Below are positions 2,158 through 42,085 of a stretch of 44,867 nucleotides of DNA, one piece after another. Origin of the DNA: Isosphaera sp. GTDB lineage: Bacteria > Planctomycetota > Planctomycetia > Gemmatales > Gemmataceae. The notes below the pieces were generated by a model, which was given only the letters and a program-made list of their open reading frames with translations, was not told the DNA's origin and searched no databases. Within the stretch, counting starts at the first letter, position 1; each line of letters begins with the position of its first letter. Both the position numbers and the translations under genes were made by a program. The stretch covers positions 1 through 44,867 of the forward strand of contig PNKH01000064.1 in the NCBI GenBank assembly GCA_013822345.1. Reading direction: 5' to 3'.

Positions 2158-4311
2158 TCACGTCTTGATCACCGCCGCCTCGGCCGACGCGTCCGCCACC
2201 ATCTGCAGCCGCCGGTAGTAGTCGTTCATCTGCCACAGGTCGTGGTGCGACCCGGACGCCTGGACGTGCCCGTCCTTCAGCAGGAACACCCGGTTCACGG
2301 TCTTCAGCGTCGACAGCCGGTTCGCCAGGAAGATGATGGTCCGCCCGGCGGCGGCCCGCTCCAGGGTGTCGTCGAGCAGGGCCAAGGTGTCCTCGTCGAT
2401 CTCGCCGGTCGGCTCCTCGATGATCAGGACGGCCGGGTCCCGGAGCAGGGCCCGCGCCAGGGCCAGCCGGAACTTCTCCCCCGGCTTCAGCACGTGCCCC
2501 CGGTCCCCGACCACCGTCTCGTACCCGTACGGCAGCTTCTCGATGAACTGGTGGGCGTGGGCCAACTTCGCCGCCTCGATCACCTGCGGCAGGTTGAACT
2601 GCGGGTCGCCGCACCCGATGTTGTTGGCCGCGGTGTCGGTGAACACCAGGTCCTCCTGCATCACCGCCGCCACCTGCGCCCGGAGCGACTCGTGGGTCAC
2701 CCACTTGATGTTCTTGTCCTCGATCCGGACCTCCCCGGCGGTCGGGTCGAGGAACCGCGGGATGAGCGACACCAGGGCCCGCTTCGAGTCCGCGTCCGGG
2801 CCGACGACCGCCACCCGGGCCCCCGCCGGGACGGCGAAGCTGACCCCGTCCAGGAGCATCCGCCCGGTCCCCGGCTCCTCCAGCTTGACCCCGCGGAACT
2901 CGATCCGGGTGGACAGCACCGGCAGGTACTCGGCGTCGGCCGCCTCCGCCTCCCCGCCGCGCCGGGCGAAGTACTCGGCCACCGCCGCGGCCGCCTCCTG
3001 GCCGCGCCGCACCCGGGCCCGGTAGACGAACCACGCGGCCACCGGCGGGCCGAGGGACACGGTGGCGACGGCCATCACCGCCAGCCCGGCCGGGGTGAAC
3101 TCGCCGGCGATGATCGACCGCCCGGCCAGGTACATCAGCGCCACCCCGGCCAGCAGCGCGACCGCCCCGAGGAGCGGCCGGGACAGGGCGTCCCCGCGGG
3201 TCCGCCGCCACCCGGCCCGGGCCGCCTCGGCCAGCTGCCGCTCCACCCGGTTCTGGTTGAACCGGTCCATCTGGTACACCTTCACCAGCCGCAACAGCCC
3301 GAGGCTCTCGGCCAGCAGCCCGAGGGCCGAGTCGGCCTGCCGCCCGCCGACCCGCCCCTCCCGGCGGAAGTACGCCGCCGCCTGCCCGACGACCAGCCAC
3401 ACCAGGGCGGCGAAGCAGAGGAAGCAGACGGCCAGCCAGAAGTTCACCAGGAGGATCAGGACCAAGAGCCCGAGGACCATGACCGGGCTGTGGAACCGGG
3501 TGGTGAGCGACGCCTGGACGGCCGCCCCGACGGCGTCCGCCTGGCGGGTGAACAGGTGGACCGGCTCGGCCGGGCCGGCGGCCCGGACGGCGGCCGCCCC
3601 GAGCCGGTAGGTGTGCAGGTACAGGGCCCGGCGGAGGCGGTTGACGAGGTCCAGGGTGGCGGCCGCGGACAGGTACATCATGGCGTTCACCAGCACCCCG
3701 CGGGCGGCCGCCACCCCGAACGCGACCACGAACAGTCCGAACAGGTACCGGCCGTTGGCGTCCCCGCCCGGCCCCGGCCGCCACGCCCACCCGTTCCACG
3801 ACGCCGCCCACCCGGCCAGCCGCCCGGCCCACCGGTTCCGCTCCCGGACGACGAGGCTGAGCACCCCCATCCGCGGGGCCGGCTCGGCCGTCCCCTTGTC
3901 CGACAGGTACGCGTCGGCCGCCTCCGGGCTGACCCGGGCCTGGAGGGCGAGGTACACCCCGGCCCGCCACCGCAGCTCCCACTCGGCCGCCGTCGGGGCG
4001 GTGACGCCCTCCCCGCCGACCACCCGCCGGGCCTGGTCCGGGTCGGCCGCGACCCGCTTCACCGCCTCCCTCCGCTGGTCCACGTCCCGGGCGTCCCACT
4101 CGGCCGCGAACTCCTGCTGGCGGACCGGGGCGAGCTGGGAGTACGCCGGGACCAGCCCGCGCCAGACGAGCAGGTCGGCGAACAGGTACAGGAGGACGAG
4201 CAGGGCCAGGTAGGCGAGGGCGGTGCCGACGGAGCCGACGGCGGCCCCGACCCGGTCGACCGGGGCCTTCATGAAGTCGGTCTTGAGGCGCTCGAGCGCG
4301 GTGGTTTCCAC
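2158..4311 (-). CDS. ABC exporter-like protein with degenerate ATPase domain
   Basis: A 717-residue half-transporter with the type I exporter layout: a membrane segment at about 30-50, a large insert (about 55-190), further membrane spans (about 190-430) and a C-terminal nucleotide-binding domain (about 468-700). The ATPase motifs are unusual. The Walker A loop reads GPDADSKR (504-511), keeping Lys510 but losing two glycines and the Ser/Thr. The signature is LKPGE (608-612) instead of LSGGQ. Walker B ends in EE (632-633) instead of DE. The H-loop histidine is Asn664. Gln552 of the Q-loop is kept. I use GTG 4311, preceded by GAGG at a short distance, because the longer frame reads through palindrome P4. 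ATP use and cargo are unknown. Confidence 0.85.
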   Translation of the reverse strand: METTALERLKTDFMKAPVDRVGAAVGSVGTALAYLALLVLLYLFADLLVWRGLVPAYSQLAPVRQQEFAAEWDARDVDQRREAVKRVAADPDQARRVVGGEGVTAPTAAEWELRWRAGVYLALQARVSPEAADAYLSDKGTAEPAPRMGVLSLVVRERNRWAGRLAGWAASWNGWAWRPGPGGDANGRYLFGLFVVAFGVAAARGVLVNAMMYLSAAATLDLVNRLRRALYLHTYRLGAAAVRAAGPAEPVHLFTRQADAVGAAVQASLTTRFHSPVMVLGLLVLILLVNFWLAVCFLCFAALVWLVVGQAAAYFRREGRVGGRQADSALGLLAESLGLLRLVKVYQMDRFNQNRVERQLAEAARAGWRRTRGDALSRPLLGAVALLAGVALMYLAGRSIIAGEFTPAGLAVMAVATVSLGPPVAAWFVYRARVRRGQEAAAAVAEYFARRGGEAEAADAEYLPVLSTRIEFRGVKLEEPGTGRMLLDGVSFAVPAGARVAVVGPDADSKRALVSLIPRFLDPTAGEVRIEDKNIKWVTHESLRAQVAAVMQEDLVFTDTAANNIGCGDPQFNLPQVIEAAKLAHAHQFIEKLPYGYETVVGDRGHVLKPGEKFRLALARALLRDPAVLIIEEPTGEIDEDTLALLDDTLERAAAGRTIIFLANRLSTLKTVNRVFLLKDGHVQASGSHHDLWQMNDYYRRLQMVADASAEAAVIKT

Positions 4312-36054: not shown

Positions 36055-36810
36055 TCACGACCCGCCGCTCATCAGCGGGAACAGGTACGCCCGGACGAAC
36101 TCCGGGGCGTGCACCCCGTGGTGCCCGCCGGCGTGCCCGGTCCGGCCCACGTCCTCGGTCCAGTGGTGCTGCCGCAGCTTCGCCGCCTCGGCCGCCGCCA
36201 GGCCGCCCGCCCGGAAACCCCACCGCCCAGCCGCCGGCCCGACCCGCCCGGCGTCCGTCGTCCCCACCACCCGGACCACCAACCCGCACGCCAGCCAGTC
36301 CTTCCCGCTGCAGAACACGTCCACCCCCTCGCGCGCCGCCCGCAGCGTCGGGCGGAGGTCGTACCCGGCCGACACGCTCGGGGCCAGCAGCACCACCCGG
36401 TCGACCGCGTCCGGCGGGAGCGCGTCCCCGGCGGCCAGCACGACGGCGCACCCGGCGCTGTGCCCGACCAGCACCACCCGCCGGCCCGGCTCCCGCGCCG
36501 CCCGCTCCCGGACCGCTTCGGCGAGCCGCGCCCCTTGCTCCCGGGCGTGGGCCAGGTCGGTCTGGTCCGCGATCAGCCGGTACTGCCCGTGCGACCACGG
36601 GAAGACGGCCAACTCGACCGGTACGTCCGCCTTCGCCAGGGCGGTCGAACACCCCTTCAGGTCGCCGGCACCGTCCAGCACCCAGACGAGCGGCCGGGTC
36701 GGGTCGGGTGGGGCGTCCGCCGGCGCACGGACGGCGTCCGTCCGGGGCGGCGGAAGGGCACACCCCGCCGCCCCGGCCGCGATCACGACTACCCACCCGA
36801 ATCGGTTCAT
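36055..36810 (-). CDS. Alpha/beta-hydrolase lipoprotein
   Basis: A 251-residue protein with a lipoprotein signal (MNRFGWVVVIAAGAAGC, lipobox AAGC with Cys17). The body has the alpha/beta-hydrolase nucleophile elbow VLVGHSAGCAVVL, a later acidic region, and a His-rich stretch HHWTEDVGRTGHAGGHHGVHAPEFV that should hold the catalytic His. The residue wording suggests an esterase/lipase-type enzyme facing the periplasm. The substrate is unknown. It is the first gene of a two-gene unit on the minus strand and is divergent from the DUF1571 gene. Confidence 0.75.
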   Translation of the reverse strand: MNRFGWVVVIAAGAAGCALPPPRTDAVRAPADAPPDPTRPLVWVLDGAGDLKGCSTALAKADVPVELAVFPWSHGQYRLIADQTDLAHAREQGARLAEAVRERAAREPGRRVVLVGHSAGCAVVLAAGDALPPDAVDRVVLLAPSVSAGYDLRPTLRAAREGVDVFCSGKDWLACGLVVRVVGTTDAGRVGPAAGRWGFRAGGLAAAEAAKLRQHHWTEDVGRTGHAGGHHGVHAPEFVRAYLFPLMSGGS

Positions 36811-38200: not shown

Positions 38201-38422
38201 ATGGCCGACACCATCAGGGGCAAGCTGACCGAGGCCGGGAACGCGGTTTCGGAGGCGGCGCAGAAGGCCGCCAACCGCGTCTCGGAGAAGGCGGGCGAGG
38301 CGAAGGACTGGGCGAAGCAGAAGATGAACCAGGCGGGGAACCGGGCGGACGAGGCGGCGACCGAGGCCCGGCACGAGGCCGAGGAGGCCCGCGAGGACAT
38401 CAAGACCAAGGCCGACGGCTGA
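38201..38422 (+). CDS. Small LEA-like helical protein
   Basis: A 73-residue, highly charged protein made of Ala/Lys/Glu-rich amphipathic 11-mer-like repeats (GNAVSEAAQKAANRVSEKAGEAKDWAKQKM; ADEAATEARHEAEEAREDIKTKADG). The pattern is that of group 3 LEA or apolipoprotein-like helices, often stress-related. There are no Cys, no signal peptide and no membrane helix. A strong AAGGAGG lies eight bases before the ATG, which suggests good expression. It is convergent with the PAS-REC gene, with P16 between them. Confidence 0.75.
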   Translation: MADTIRGKLTEAGNAVSEAAQKAANRVSEKAGEAKDWAKQKMNQAGNRADEAATEARHEAEEAREDIKTKADG

Positions 38423-38509: not shown

Positions 38510-39598
38510 TCACACCGTCACCCCGGCCACCCGCCGGACGGCCGCGACCAGGTCTTCCGGCCGGAACGGCTTCGCCAGGAACACCGTCCGCTCGTCGCCC
38601 TTGCCCGGGCCGCCCCGCGGGTCGGCGAGGCCGCTGACCAGCACCGCCGGCAGCCCGGGGGCCAGCTCCCGCAGCTGCCCGAGCAGGTGGTCGCCGCGGA
38701 GGCCGGGCATCTTCACGTCCAGCACCGCCACCCGCACCTCGGCCCCGTAGTGGCGGAACAGGTCGAGGGCGGCCGGCCCGGTCGCCGCCAGCAGCGGCTC
38801 GTACCCGAGGTCTTCGAGCGTCGAGGCCATCAGCTCGCGGATGAACATCTCGTCGTCGGCCACCAGCGCCCGGGCCGGCCGTTCGGTCGGGGGCGGCGTC
38901 CGGGCCGGCTCCACCGGCCGGGCCGTCGGGCCGGGGTCGGGGCCGCGGCCGGACAGCCCGGCCAGCTTGTGGCACAGCTCGGCCCCGCGCATCCCGGCCT
39001 GCTCGACCTGGTCGAGGTGGGCCACCGCCGCCGGCGGCAGCCCCTTCCGGGCCAGCCCCACCCCGCCCAGGACCACGGTGAAGACGTTGTTCAGGTCGTG
39101 GGCCACGCTCCCGGCCAGGGCCGCGAGGTCGTCCCCCCGCCGGCCGCCGGCCGGCGGCCGGCCGGTCACGTCCAGGGCGAACGACAGGACCGACGCGACC
39201 TTCCCGGCCGGGTCGGTCAGGACCGAGCTCCGCCACTCCACCACCCGCACCTCGCCGGCCTTGGTCAGGTTCCGGTTGGTGACGACGACCGTCCGCTCGG
39301 CCCCGGACCTGACCCGCTCGGCGACCGGGGCGACGACCGCCTCCCACTCCCCGGGCGGGAAGAACCCGGGCCAGTCCGGCCACAGCCGCCGCCCGGTGAC
39401 CTCGGCCGCGGTCCACCCGAACAGGTGCTCGGCCGCCTCGTTCCAGCGGGTGACGCGCAGCTCGCTGTCCCAGACGACGACCGCGACCGGGGCGTTGTCC
39501 AGGTGGTAGGCGAGGTGCTGGCAGGTCCGCCAGAACTCCTGCGCGGCCGGGGCCGCCGGGGCGTCGGGTTCGGCGGCCGGGCGTTCGGGCGGTGACAT
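38510..39598 (-). CDS. PAS-DHp-receiver protein without an ATPase domain
   Basis: A 362-residue signalling protein. A PAS domain (about 31-147, LDNAPVAVVVWDSELRVTRWNEAAEHLFGW) is followed by a histidine-kinase dimerisation helix with LAGSVAHDLNNVFTVVLGG (His167), a second helix ending near 216, a Pro-rich linker, then a receiver domain (about 244-362): acidic Asp248/Asp249, phosphoacceptor Asp294 in LDVKMPG, Ser322 and Lys343. The HATPase catalytic domain that should lie between the two, about 120 residues with N, G1 and G2 boxes, is missing and only about 27 linker residues remain. It cannot phosphorylate itself alone. The ATG at 39598 comes shortly after a TATATT -10 box. Confidence 0.82.
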   Translation of the reverse strand: MSPPERPAAEPDAPAAPAAQEFWRTCQHLAYHLDNAPVAVVVWDSELRVTRWNEAAEHLFGWTAAEVTGRRLWPDWPGFFPPGEWEAVVAPVAERVRSGAERTVVVTNRNLTKAGEVRVVEWRSSVLTDPAGKVASVLSFALDVTGRPPAGGRRGDDLAALAGSVAHDLNNVFTVVLGGVGLARKGLPPAAVAHLDQVEQAGMRGAELCHKLAGLSGRGPDPGPTARPVEPARTPPPTERPARALVADDEMFIRELMASTLEDLGYEPLLAATGPAALDLFRHYGAEVRVAVLDVKMPGLRGDHLLGQLRELAPGLPAVLVSGLADPRGGPGKGDERTVFLAKPFRPEDLVAAVRRVAGVTV

Positions 39599-39645: not shown

Positions 39646-41007
39646 TTACGAGGGTTCCGCGAACCGGGCGGCCGCCTCGGCGCACCGGGCGAGCAACTGG
39701 TCCCGCCGCCGCGGGTTCCGGTAGACCCCGCGGGTCGTGGCCCACTCCCGCACCTGGTCGACCAGCGGGAGCAGGGCGGCGACCGCCTCCGGCCGGCGGG
39801 CGACCGGGCCGACGGCGACCGGCGCGGTGTGGGCGAAGGCGCCCGCCGGGTCGCACCGGGCCGCGACCCACCCCGCCCCCGCCACCTCCGCCTCGACCAC
39901 CTCCCGGCCGGCGGCGATCACCCGTCCGTCAGCCACGAGTTCGACCCCGGCCGCCGGCCGGACCGCCGCCCGGAACCGGGTGCCGTCGCGGGTGAGGTCG
40001 AGCCGCGGCCCGGCGGTGGCGACCGCCCGCCCGGCCCGGGTGGCCCAGACCCACGTCCCGCCGGCCACGTCCGCATCCGTCCGCATCGTTCCGACAGCGA
40101 CGCGGTTGCTGTCCTTGCCGCTCGCCCCGACCAGCGGCAGCCGCACCCCGGAGTCCCACAGCCGGTACACCCACGGCAGGAGCGGCGCCTTCCGCGGGGC
40201 GGCCGTCACCTCGACCGCGTCGACCTTGCCGAGGACCGCCGCGACCAGCGCCTCGCCGCCGACCAGGCCGCCGGCCGGCTCGAACGCGTCGACCCAGACG
40301 ACGAGCCCGCCCTTGCGGTGGCACTGGTCGCACCAGTCGCACACGCCCCAGTCGTCGGTGTCCTCCGGCGGGCCGAACGTGAGCGGGAACACCGGCCGGT
40401 GGGAGTGCAGAAGCGCGACCTTGCCGAGCACCGGGTGGGTGTTGAAGGTGTTCACCACGACGGCGGTGCCGCCGCGCTCGAGGGCCGGGGCCTGGCCGCT
40501 GAACGCGGCCAGCTGCGGGGCGGTCGGGTAGGCGGTGCCGTCGAGGCTCGGGAACGGCTGGACCGTGGCGAGCAAGTTCACCACGTCGAGCCCCTCGGCA
40601 GCGCCTTCGAGGAGGGCGTCGTGCGGCGAGAGGAAATGGCAGCGGGTGTCGACCGCGACCCGCCCGGGGTCCGGGTCGGACGAGCGCTCGACCGCGAACC
40701 GCACGGCCATCTGCCCCGGGCCGAGCGTGACCACCCGGTCGAGCGCGGCGTACTCCGGGCCTTTCGACACCTGGAACCGGAGCGGCACCCCGGCGGGCAG
40801 CGGGACCTCGCACGCCCCGTCGGTGTACGCCCACCGTTCCCGGCCGACCGCCAGGTGCCCGCCGACCGCCTCGTTCCGGCCGAGCGGGATGTCCGGGAAC
40901 CGGCCGAGCGGGGCGAAGTGGGTGCCGTCCGGGCCGGTGATGCGGACGCGCACCGGGGTCGGCCGGGTGGTGGCCGCGTCGTTGACCCGGAGGTGAACGG
41001 TGAGCAT
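39646..41007 (-). CDS. CehA/McbA-like PHP-type hydrolase with altered metal site
   Basis: A 453-residue protein. An N-terminal beta domain (about 1-115) precedes the region VDTRCHFLSPHDALLEGAAEGLDVVNLLA (119-147), the wording of CehA/McbA family metallohydrolases, a branch of PHP hydrolases. In that family the first metal motif is DxHxH. Here it reads Asp120-Thr-Arg122-Cys-His124, so one metal histidine is replaced by Arg. A later LLHSHRPVFPLTFG and WCDQCHRKGGLVVWVDAFEP follow the family. No signal peptide is seen. The change may lower or end metal catalysis, so the protein may bind rather than cleave. Confidence 0.7.
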   Translation of the reverse strand: MLTVHLRVNDAATTRPTPVRVRITGPDGTHFAPLGRFPDIPLGRNEAVGGHLAVGRERWAYTDGACEVPLPAGVPLRFQVSKGPEYAALDRVVTLGPGQMAVRFAVERSSDPDPGRVAVDTRCHFLSPHDALLEGAAEGLDVVNLLATVQPFPSLDGTAYPTAPQLAAFSGQAPALERGGTAVVVNTFNTHPVLGKVALLHSHRPVFPLTFGPPEDTDDWGVCDWCDQCHRKGGLVVWVDAFEPAGGLVGGEALVAAVLGKVDAVEVTAAPRKAPLLPWVYRLWDSGVRLPLVGASGKDSNRVAVGTMRTDADVAGGTWVWATRAGRAVATAGPRLDLTRDGTRFRAAVRPAAGVELVADGRVIAAGREVVEAEVAGAGWVAARCDPAGAFAHTAPVAVGPVARRPEAVAALLPLVDQVREWATTRGVYRNPRRRDQLLARCAEAAARFAEPS

Positions 41008-41174: not shown

Positions 41175-42038
41175 TCACCCCTCGTTCCCGCCGCAGTCGC
41201 GGAGGATCTTGCGGAACGCCTCGACCGCCACCGGGAACAGGTCCGCCCCGGTCACGCCCCCGGTCGGGCCGCCGCCGCGCAGGTGCGGCTCCAGCACCGC
41301 GAACCCCCTGTACCCCGCCTGCACCGCCGCCCGGATGCTGTGCGGGATGTTCCCGTCCCCGTGCCCGGCGAGGACGCCGTTCTCGTGCCCGGTGCCGATC
41401 TCCTTCCAGTTCCGCTTCCAGTCCTTGATGTGGAAGTGCGCGGTGAACGCCTTCGTCCGCTCCCACCCGTCCACCGGGTCGTAGTTCCCGAACACGTAGT
41501 TCGCGGCGTCGTACGCGGCCCGCAGCGCCGGGCTGTTGACGGTGGCGAAGATGTCGGCGACGCGCTCCGGGGAGTCGCCGTAGATGCGGTGCTCGTTCTC
41601 GTGGAACAGGGTGACCTTGCTCGCCGCCGCCGCCTCGGCGAGGACGGACAGCCGCCGCATCACCTCGCCGCGGTGGGCCGGCCAGTTCGCCGGGTCGAAG
41701 TTCGGGTCGTTCCCCGGCGGGTAGAAGCTGAACACGCGGATGTTCGGGGTGCCGAAGACGCCGCACAGTTCGACGGCCCGCTTGAACCGGTCGAGGTGCG
41801 GCTCGAACGGGGCGTCGACCGCGACCTTGCCGATCGGCGACCCGATCGCGGAGAGCTTGAAGCCCTCGCCGTCGAGGAGCTTCTTGAACTCCTTCACCTG
41901 GTCGTCGGACAGGGCGAGCACGTTCGTCTTGTGGATCGACCGGAACTCGATGTGCCGGACGTTGCAGCCCTTCAGGACGGCGACCTGCTCGCGCGGGTCG
42001 GGGCTGATCTCGTCGGAGAAGGCGCTGAGGGTGAACAT
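41175..42038 (-). CDS. Sugar phosphate isomerase/epimerase-like TIM-barrel protein
   Basis: A 287-residue protein of the xylose isomerase-like TIM-barrel/AP endonuclease 2 superfamily. Signature stretches: FSDEISPDPREQVAVLKGCNVRHIEFRS, KLSAIGSPIGKV, VTLFHENEHRIYGDSPERVADIF (metal Glu and His), AANYVFGNYDPVDGWER, and FHIKDWKRNWK with the metal-binding His, ending GYRGFAVLEPHLRGGG. The four metal ligands of the family seem present. There is no signal peptide. The exact sugar is unknown. It lies 47 bases downstream of the membrane protein gene on the same strand. Confidence 0.85.
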   Translation of the reverse strand: MFTLSAFSDEISPDPREQVAVLKGCNVRHIEFRSIHKTNVLALSDDQVKEFKKLLDGEGFKLSAIGSPIGKVAVDAPFEPHLDRFKRAVELCGVFGTPNIRVFSFYPPGNDPNFDPANWPAHRGEVMRRLSVLAEAAAASKVTLFHENEHRIYGDSPERVADIFATVNSPALRAAYDAANYVFGNYDPVDGWERTKAFTAHFHIKDWKRNWKEIGTGHENGVLAGHGDGNIPHSIRAAVQAGYRGFAVLEPHLRGGGPTGGVTGADLFPVAVEAFRKILRDCGGNEG

Positions 42039-42085
42039 GCGTCGGTACCGGGGTGAGTGTGGTGCCGGTAGTGTACGGGGCCGGC

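Follow-up and report, generated by a model that had tools for sequence, protein, structure and literature searches.

A reduced hybrid kinase of Isosphaera sp. without a catalytic ATPase domain

What can a hybrid kinase-like protein do when its sensor, its phosphoacceptor histidine and its receiver are in place and the ATPase domain is missing? The question is raised by a gene in contig PNKH01000064.1 of Isosphaera sp. (assembly GCA_013822345.1), a stretch of 44,867 nucleotides called the window below. A preliminary description, made from the letters of the window, had noted a PAS sensor, a His helix (HDLNN, His167) and a receiver with a full Asp/Ser/Lys set, with about 27 linker residues where an HATPase domain should stand, and had proposed that the protein could be a phosphotransfer hub or a dimerization partner of a true kinase.

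Domain layout of the window protein

The gene and its parts are as follows.

38510..39598, minus strand: gene for the reduced hybrid kinase (362 aa), with PAS, His hairpin and REC (translation, Pfam, AlphaFold model)
39158..39502, minus strand: PAS domain, residues 33-147, the orthologue of PAS-A in full-length relatives (PAS_4, E 6.1e-16)
38945..39139, minus strand: His hairpin (DHp), helices 154-184 and 189-218, His167 in HDLNN (alignment and model)
38873..38944, minus strand: 24-residue linker, residues 219-242, mostly of low confidence (model and alignment spacing)
38528..38872, minus strand: receiver domain, residues 243-357, with D248, D249, D294, S322 and K343 (Response_reg, E 1.5e-13)

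The frame has no internal stop, and its codon positions contrast strongly (GC2 0.53 versus GC3 0.98). Pfam matched PAS_4 at residues 33-147 and Response_reg at 245-355 with nothing between them, and no HATPase match was found in the protein. Pfam HisKA gave no match at E ≤ 1, a negative tempered by the HMMER filters, which discard most weak matches. Because Pfam HisKA is silent, the His helix was called from the alignment with relatives, in which 20 of 23 rows match HisKA, from the NCBIfam model PRK13837, whose best stretch is 158-218, and from the hairpin predicted by AlphaFold. The AlphaFold model, built with 22 relatives as input (mean pLDDT 83.7), gave the PAS domain, the hairpin, the linker and the receiver in this order, and alignment and model together place H167, in an HDxxN motif, within the hairpin at 154-218. 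The first PAS in 13 relatives shares 37-47% identity with the PAS domain, and the receiver set is complete, with the acid pair D248/D249, D294, S322 and K343. The sensor, the His helix at His167, the receiver residues including D294 and the missing ATPase domain were thus borne out; the linker is indeed short, at 24 residues rather than about 27. No match at E 0.01 was found for the pseudo-HATPase C-terminal domain PF10090, which we take to be the ChpT-type domain (Spo0B/ChpT-type dimeric phosphotransferase). A fold search added little, its top rows being PAS and LOV-kinase structures with poor whole-chain superposition.

Origin of the reduced form

A family search over 95 genomes (E ≤ 1e-25) found matches in 21, the window's own (G000) included. 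The window protein was aligned with 22 relatives: the other 20 matching genomes contributed one each, and the receiver-less forms from G013 and G015 were added. Two of the 22 (G089, G091) are interrupted by contig ends, and some (e.g. G031, G094) are related more distantly and are not clear orthologues. HATPase_c was matched in all 22 relatives and not in the window protein, and Response_reg in 21 of the 23 rows. PAS-A is separated from the hairpin by 11 residues in the window protein versus 153 in 14/14 relatives listed, and the hairpin from the receiver by 24 residues versus 183-195, HATPase_c included, in 12 receiver-bearing relatives. At the level of this alignment, the spacings show that a second PAS domain (PAS-B, ~142 aa) and the HATPase domain (~160 aa) have both been lost in frame. 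The preliminary inventory was right about the ATPase domain and had overlooked the second PAS. It had also named a full HATPase domain in relatives as a finding that would count against it; since all 22 have one, the window protein is a derived, reduced form, seen in a single genome, and not a conserved hub architecture. Matches of 42-48% from about residue 184, which at first sight gave relatives a contiguous DHp-REC, are really the second helix aligned onto the end of the HATPase.

The surroundings of the gene supplied three synteny markers.

39646..41007, minus strand: conserved neighbour upstream, used as a synteny marker; it has no Pfam match at 0.01 and lies 47 bp from the reduced gene's start
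41175..42056, minus strand: another synteny marker, a TIM barrel of xylose-isomerase-like type (PF01261)
36055..36810, minus strand: synteny marker on the opposite side, weak alpha/beta-hydrolase-type Pfam matches

A homologue of the 39646-41007 neighbour was found in 19/19 genus genomes. Beside it, 9 of the 18 other genus genomes (G001, G002, G004, G005, G008, G009, G011, G017 and G018) carry a full-length PAS-PAS-HisKA-HATPase-REC kinase, the assignments of G005 and G008 depending on neighbour matches that are partial and lie at contig ends. Two (G013, G015) have a receiver-less kinase there, one (G012) a kinase cut by a contig end, and one (G016; L086:5494-5712) a short PAS remnant alone. 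In three (G003, G007, G010) a related kinase lies elsewhere, not at the locus, and in the last two (G014, G006) no kinase orthologue was found beside the neighbour in the stretch read; G006 has a different kinase (44%) on the neighbour's other side. A genome of another genus (G087) also has the full-length kinase at this locus. Six of the loci fetched (L036, L037, L040, L042, L043, L046) have a homologue of 36055-36810 on the far side of the kinase, and L031 has a weak one. On the strength of these shared neighbours, the window gene is read as the orthologue, still in place, of a complete PAS-PAS-HisKA-HATPase-REC hybrid kinase. It shares with the hybrid kinases of its genus and family the locus, PAS-A, the His hairpin and the receiver, but is without their PAS-B and HATPase, and its DHp is relaxed. 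One genus thus holds, at one locus, the same kinase in full-length form, without its receiver, without its ATPase and nearly erased, a clear natural experiment that permits testing which domains stay selected after the catalytic domain is lost, and whether DHp-REC proteins are phosphate sinks.

The receiver-less kinases of G015 (L082:8554-10155) and G013 (L083:5965-7578) are a different reduction of the same gene, and that of G015 has HNFNN in place of HDFNN.

In a receiver tree, 17 relatives group with the window receiver and are split (97/95) from 6 paralogues found in its own genome, at a point where the program warns that long branches meet. The end branch of the window receiver is 0.47 versus a median of 0.17, no starred subgroup within the family holds it, and it falls outside the 12 genus receivers. 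In the tree of the 41175-42056 neighbour G000 is basal among the genus rows; that of 39646-41007, in a midpoint-rooted drawing, places G000 with G014, G007 and G010, grouped with the out-genus G087. Vertical descent from a deep branch suffices to explain these trees, though the gene may instead have been gained horizontally.

The search for relatives with the same PAS-DHp-REC order, suggested in the preliminary description, gave no second case. None was found in the genus (19 genomes, E ≤ 1e-30), the family (95 genomes, 1e-25, up to 21 candidates scored per genome), the order (102 genomes, 1e-22, up to 30) or the phylum sample (392 genomes, 1e-14, up to 7), where the wide searches scored part of the candidates and may miss weak CA-less cases. 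Among the phylum matches, the six that start nearest the beginning of the query piece (at positions 11 to 35 of 210) all proved by eye to have an HATPase. A conserved CA-less PAS-DHp-REC architecture thus appears unlikely across the candidates scored in the genus, family, order and phylum sample.

A wider locus search gave 90 stretches encoding a relative, of which 80 loci were kept; judged by eye from the match spans, L175 alone among these 80 spans His and receiver without ~130-180 extra residues. Four loci were read (L096, L147, L172, L175). L172 has an HATPase, the open frame of L147 stops inside the HATPase region, and L096 is cut near a contig end and seems to be put together from pieces that are unrelated. 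The L096 contig is filed under Kouleothrix, and its receiver, which follows an unrelated frame, is 63% identical to that of the window, possibly through a chimera or misbinning. L175, from Magnetococcales, encodes a 246-aa protein (2950-3690) in which an AHDLNN helix region is joined to a receiver with no HATPase match, as in the window protein; it differs in having no PAS, and in its lineage and neighbourhood, its gene sitting between a stand-alone receiver and complete kinases.

The L175 protein, too, has no Pfam HisKA match, so counts of HATPase-less proteins based on HisKA models may be low. The available portion of PMC3591291 gives a SMART count of 1556 HisKA proteins without HATPase among 42417 (3.66%), 711 of them with HE/DxxN/T. 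With a His hairpin, HDxxN and no HATPase, the window protein joins these already known proteins by alignment and model, but its full-length parent is shown by synteny, and Pfam HisKA, which fails to score it, would alone have missed it.

Constraint on the remaining domains and proposed function

We counted how many family-invariant residues the window protein keeps, using 17 relatives (G089, G091, G031, G047, G094 and the paralogue C63 left out; G007, G010 and G072, which have no PAS-A, also left out for PAS, and the receiver-less G013 and G015 for REC). It keeps 22/28 in PAS-A, a count that may be high by up to 2 because residues 146-147 align into PAS-B, 16/29 in the hairpin and 30/31 in the receiver, while the other members, left out one at a time, keep 93-100%, 94-100% and 84-100%, respectively. 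Fisher tests, taking columns as independent, gave p = 0.00014 for hairpin versus receiver, p = 0.045 for PAS versus receiver and p = 0.09 for hairpin versus PAS. The hairpin residues kept include A166, H167, N170, N171 and T174, and D168 is also kept; given 16/29 kept, the joint retention of H167, N170 and N171 has a probability of ~0.15, within chance. Mean identity to 10 genus orthologues (G007, G010, G013 and G015 left out) was 0.53 for the window hairpin versus 0.74 and 0.64 for those of two out-genus kinases, 0.53 versus 0.57 and 0.56 for the receiver, and 0.45 versus 0.47 and 0.51 for PAS. By these comparisons the hairpin is clearly more diverged than in the two out-genus kinases, PAS and receiver slightly. 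Judged from sequence, this is the pattern expected if the hairpin's catalytic partner is gone while the receiver is still used.

Our preferred reading, which we hold with a probability of roughly 0.5, is that of a kinase-dead, PAS-gated receiver protein whose hairpin now serves mainly as a dimer stalk, maybe with phosphatase activity, and which acts as a phosphate sink or brake fed by others. As the spacings show, this in-place orthologue of a complete hybrid kinase has lost PAS-B and HATPase in frame, and autophosphorylation would no longer be possible because the ATP-binding domain is missing. The product would form a PAS-sensing dimer, its receiver phosphorylated in trans by the cell's complete kinases or by small phosphodonors; the kept hairpin would be the stalk of this dimer and perhaps a phosphatase surface acting on its own receiver, and the net role would be that of a signal-gated phosphate sink or brake. 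The window protein probably no longer starts signals itself and only receives or quenches those from other proteins. The N at H+4 is kept as N171; in the part of PMC3510030 available, CrdS phosphatase activity requires this N, and the same residue is given this role in other HisKA kinases. Excerpts of PMC7005713 report phosphatase activity of HK853 without its CA domain at pH 8.0, inactive at pH 5.0, and stimulation of the HK853 phosphatase by nucleotide in the CA domain, so that CA loss may weaken the activity. The constraint on the receiver would also fit a plain relay receiver.

A more general idea, which we put forward as speculative, is that hybrid kinases repeatedly become kinase-free 'stalked receivers', the ATPase being excised and the hairpin staying, fused to the receiver on which it acts, as a dimer whose phosphatase activity is signal-gated. 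Such a protein would be a phosphate sink that resets itself, and the window protein and the DHp-REC protein of Magnetococcales would have arisen as two separate examples.

Alternative explanations

The phosphotransfer hub of the preliminary description now appears doubtful. Complete kinases would act in trans on His167, or to begin with on the receiver, and phosphate would pass among His167, Asp294 and other receivers. In its favour, H167, D168, N170, N171 and the full receiver set are retained, the hairpin is predicted intact by the AlphaFold model, and EnvZ HisKA and HATPase parts function on separate chains, as cited in the accessible text of PMC3591291. The same portion of that source describes CheA3/CheA4 of Rhodobacter sphaeroides as a split kinase, in which a phosphoacceptor part stands without a catalytic part, as in the window protein. 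However, the DHp is the least conserved part of the window protein, and with 13 of its 29 invariants gone against one of 31 in the receiver, the hairpin has lost most of its constraint, which weakens a relay through His167.

A separate catalytic partner was also looked for. The window's genome is a draft of 226 contigs, 95.2% complete. It has 45 HATPase_c hits, and an HATPase adjoins every one of its 33 HisKA hits. The remaining 12 HATPases were read by eye. Six have a His helix of their own (C9, C23, C43, C54, C137, C178); C114 best matches HATPase_c_2, presumably an anti-sigma type; C11, read without its N-terminal part, we take to be CheA-like, C63 (15828-16190) and C35 gyrase-like, C21 MutL-like and C161 Hsp90-like. 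Among the 45 hits of this 95.2% complete genome, then, no orphan HisKA-type HATPase without its own His helix was found, contrary to the conserved orphan that had been envisaged, and the likeness to CheA3/CheA4, which are of the CheA type, ends here, no split partner having been found. The best DHp matches in the genome are 41-44% identical among the matches listed, the top one 44% over 54 residues versus 49-54% over 68-69 for two orthologues. In the C137 kinase (L184, about 2000-2650) the His helix and the HATPase lie in two different frames, owing to a frameshift or a sequencing error.

We consider it unlikely that the gene is a functionless decaying remnant, one of several erosions at the locus. 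The eroded forms in the genus, which are receiver-less (G013, G015), a PAS fragment (G016) or without a kinase in the stretch read (G014), and the relaxed DHp and PAS would suit this explanation, but neither a broken frame nor a loss of constraint throughout was found: the frame is intact across two junctions, the receiver keeps nearly all its invariants at 0.53 mean identity, and the contrast between GC2 and GC3 persists.

Quite unlikely, in our view, is a pseudokinase partner that pairs through its hairpin with a complete kinase and adjusts the activity of that kinase, in the way that RocA acts on CovS. RocA resembles the window protein in being derived from a kinase, not being one and acting through another kinase, and RocA lacking its CA domain complements when overexpressed, and RocA interacts with CovS, according to the available text of PMC7028121; the same text has RocA keep a degenerate CA domain, unlike the window protein. 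The hairpin is intact in the predicted model, but 13 of its 29 invariant residues are changed. The strongly kept receiver would be superfluous for this role, and RocA is not known to have a receiver. C63, the nearest complete kinase that the genome yielded, shares 50% identity with an orthologue and stands apart in the receiver tree.

An assembly error or collapsed deletion is highly improbable, even in a draft of 226 contigs, with two in-frame losses that both fall at domain edges and because mis-assembly would not produce the divergence of the remaining DHp along its whole length.

Tail-to-tail with the reduced kinase gene lies a small frame of 73 aa, Ala-rich and charged (MADTIRGKLTEAG..., window 38201-38422, plus strand).
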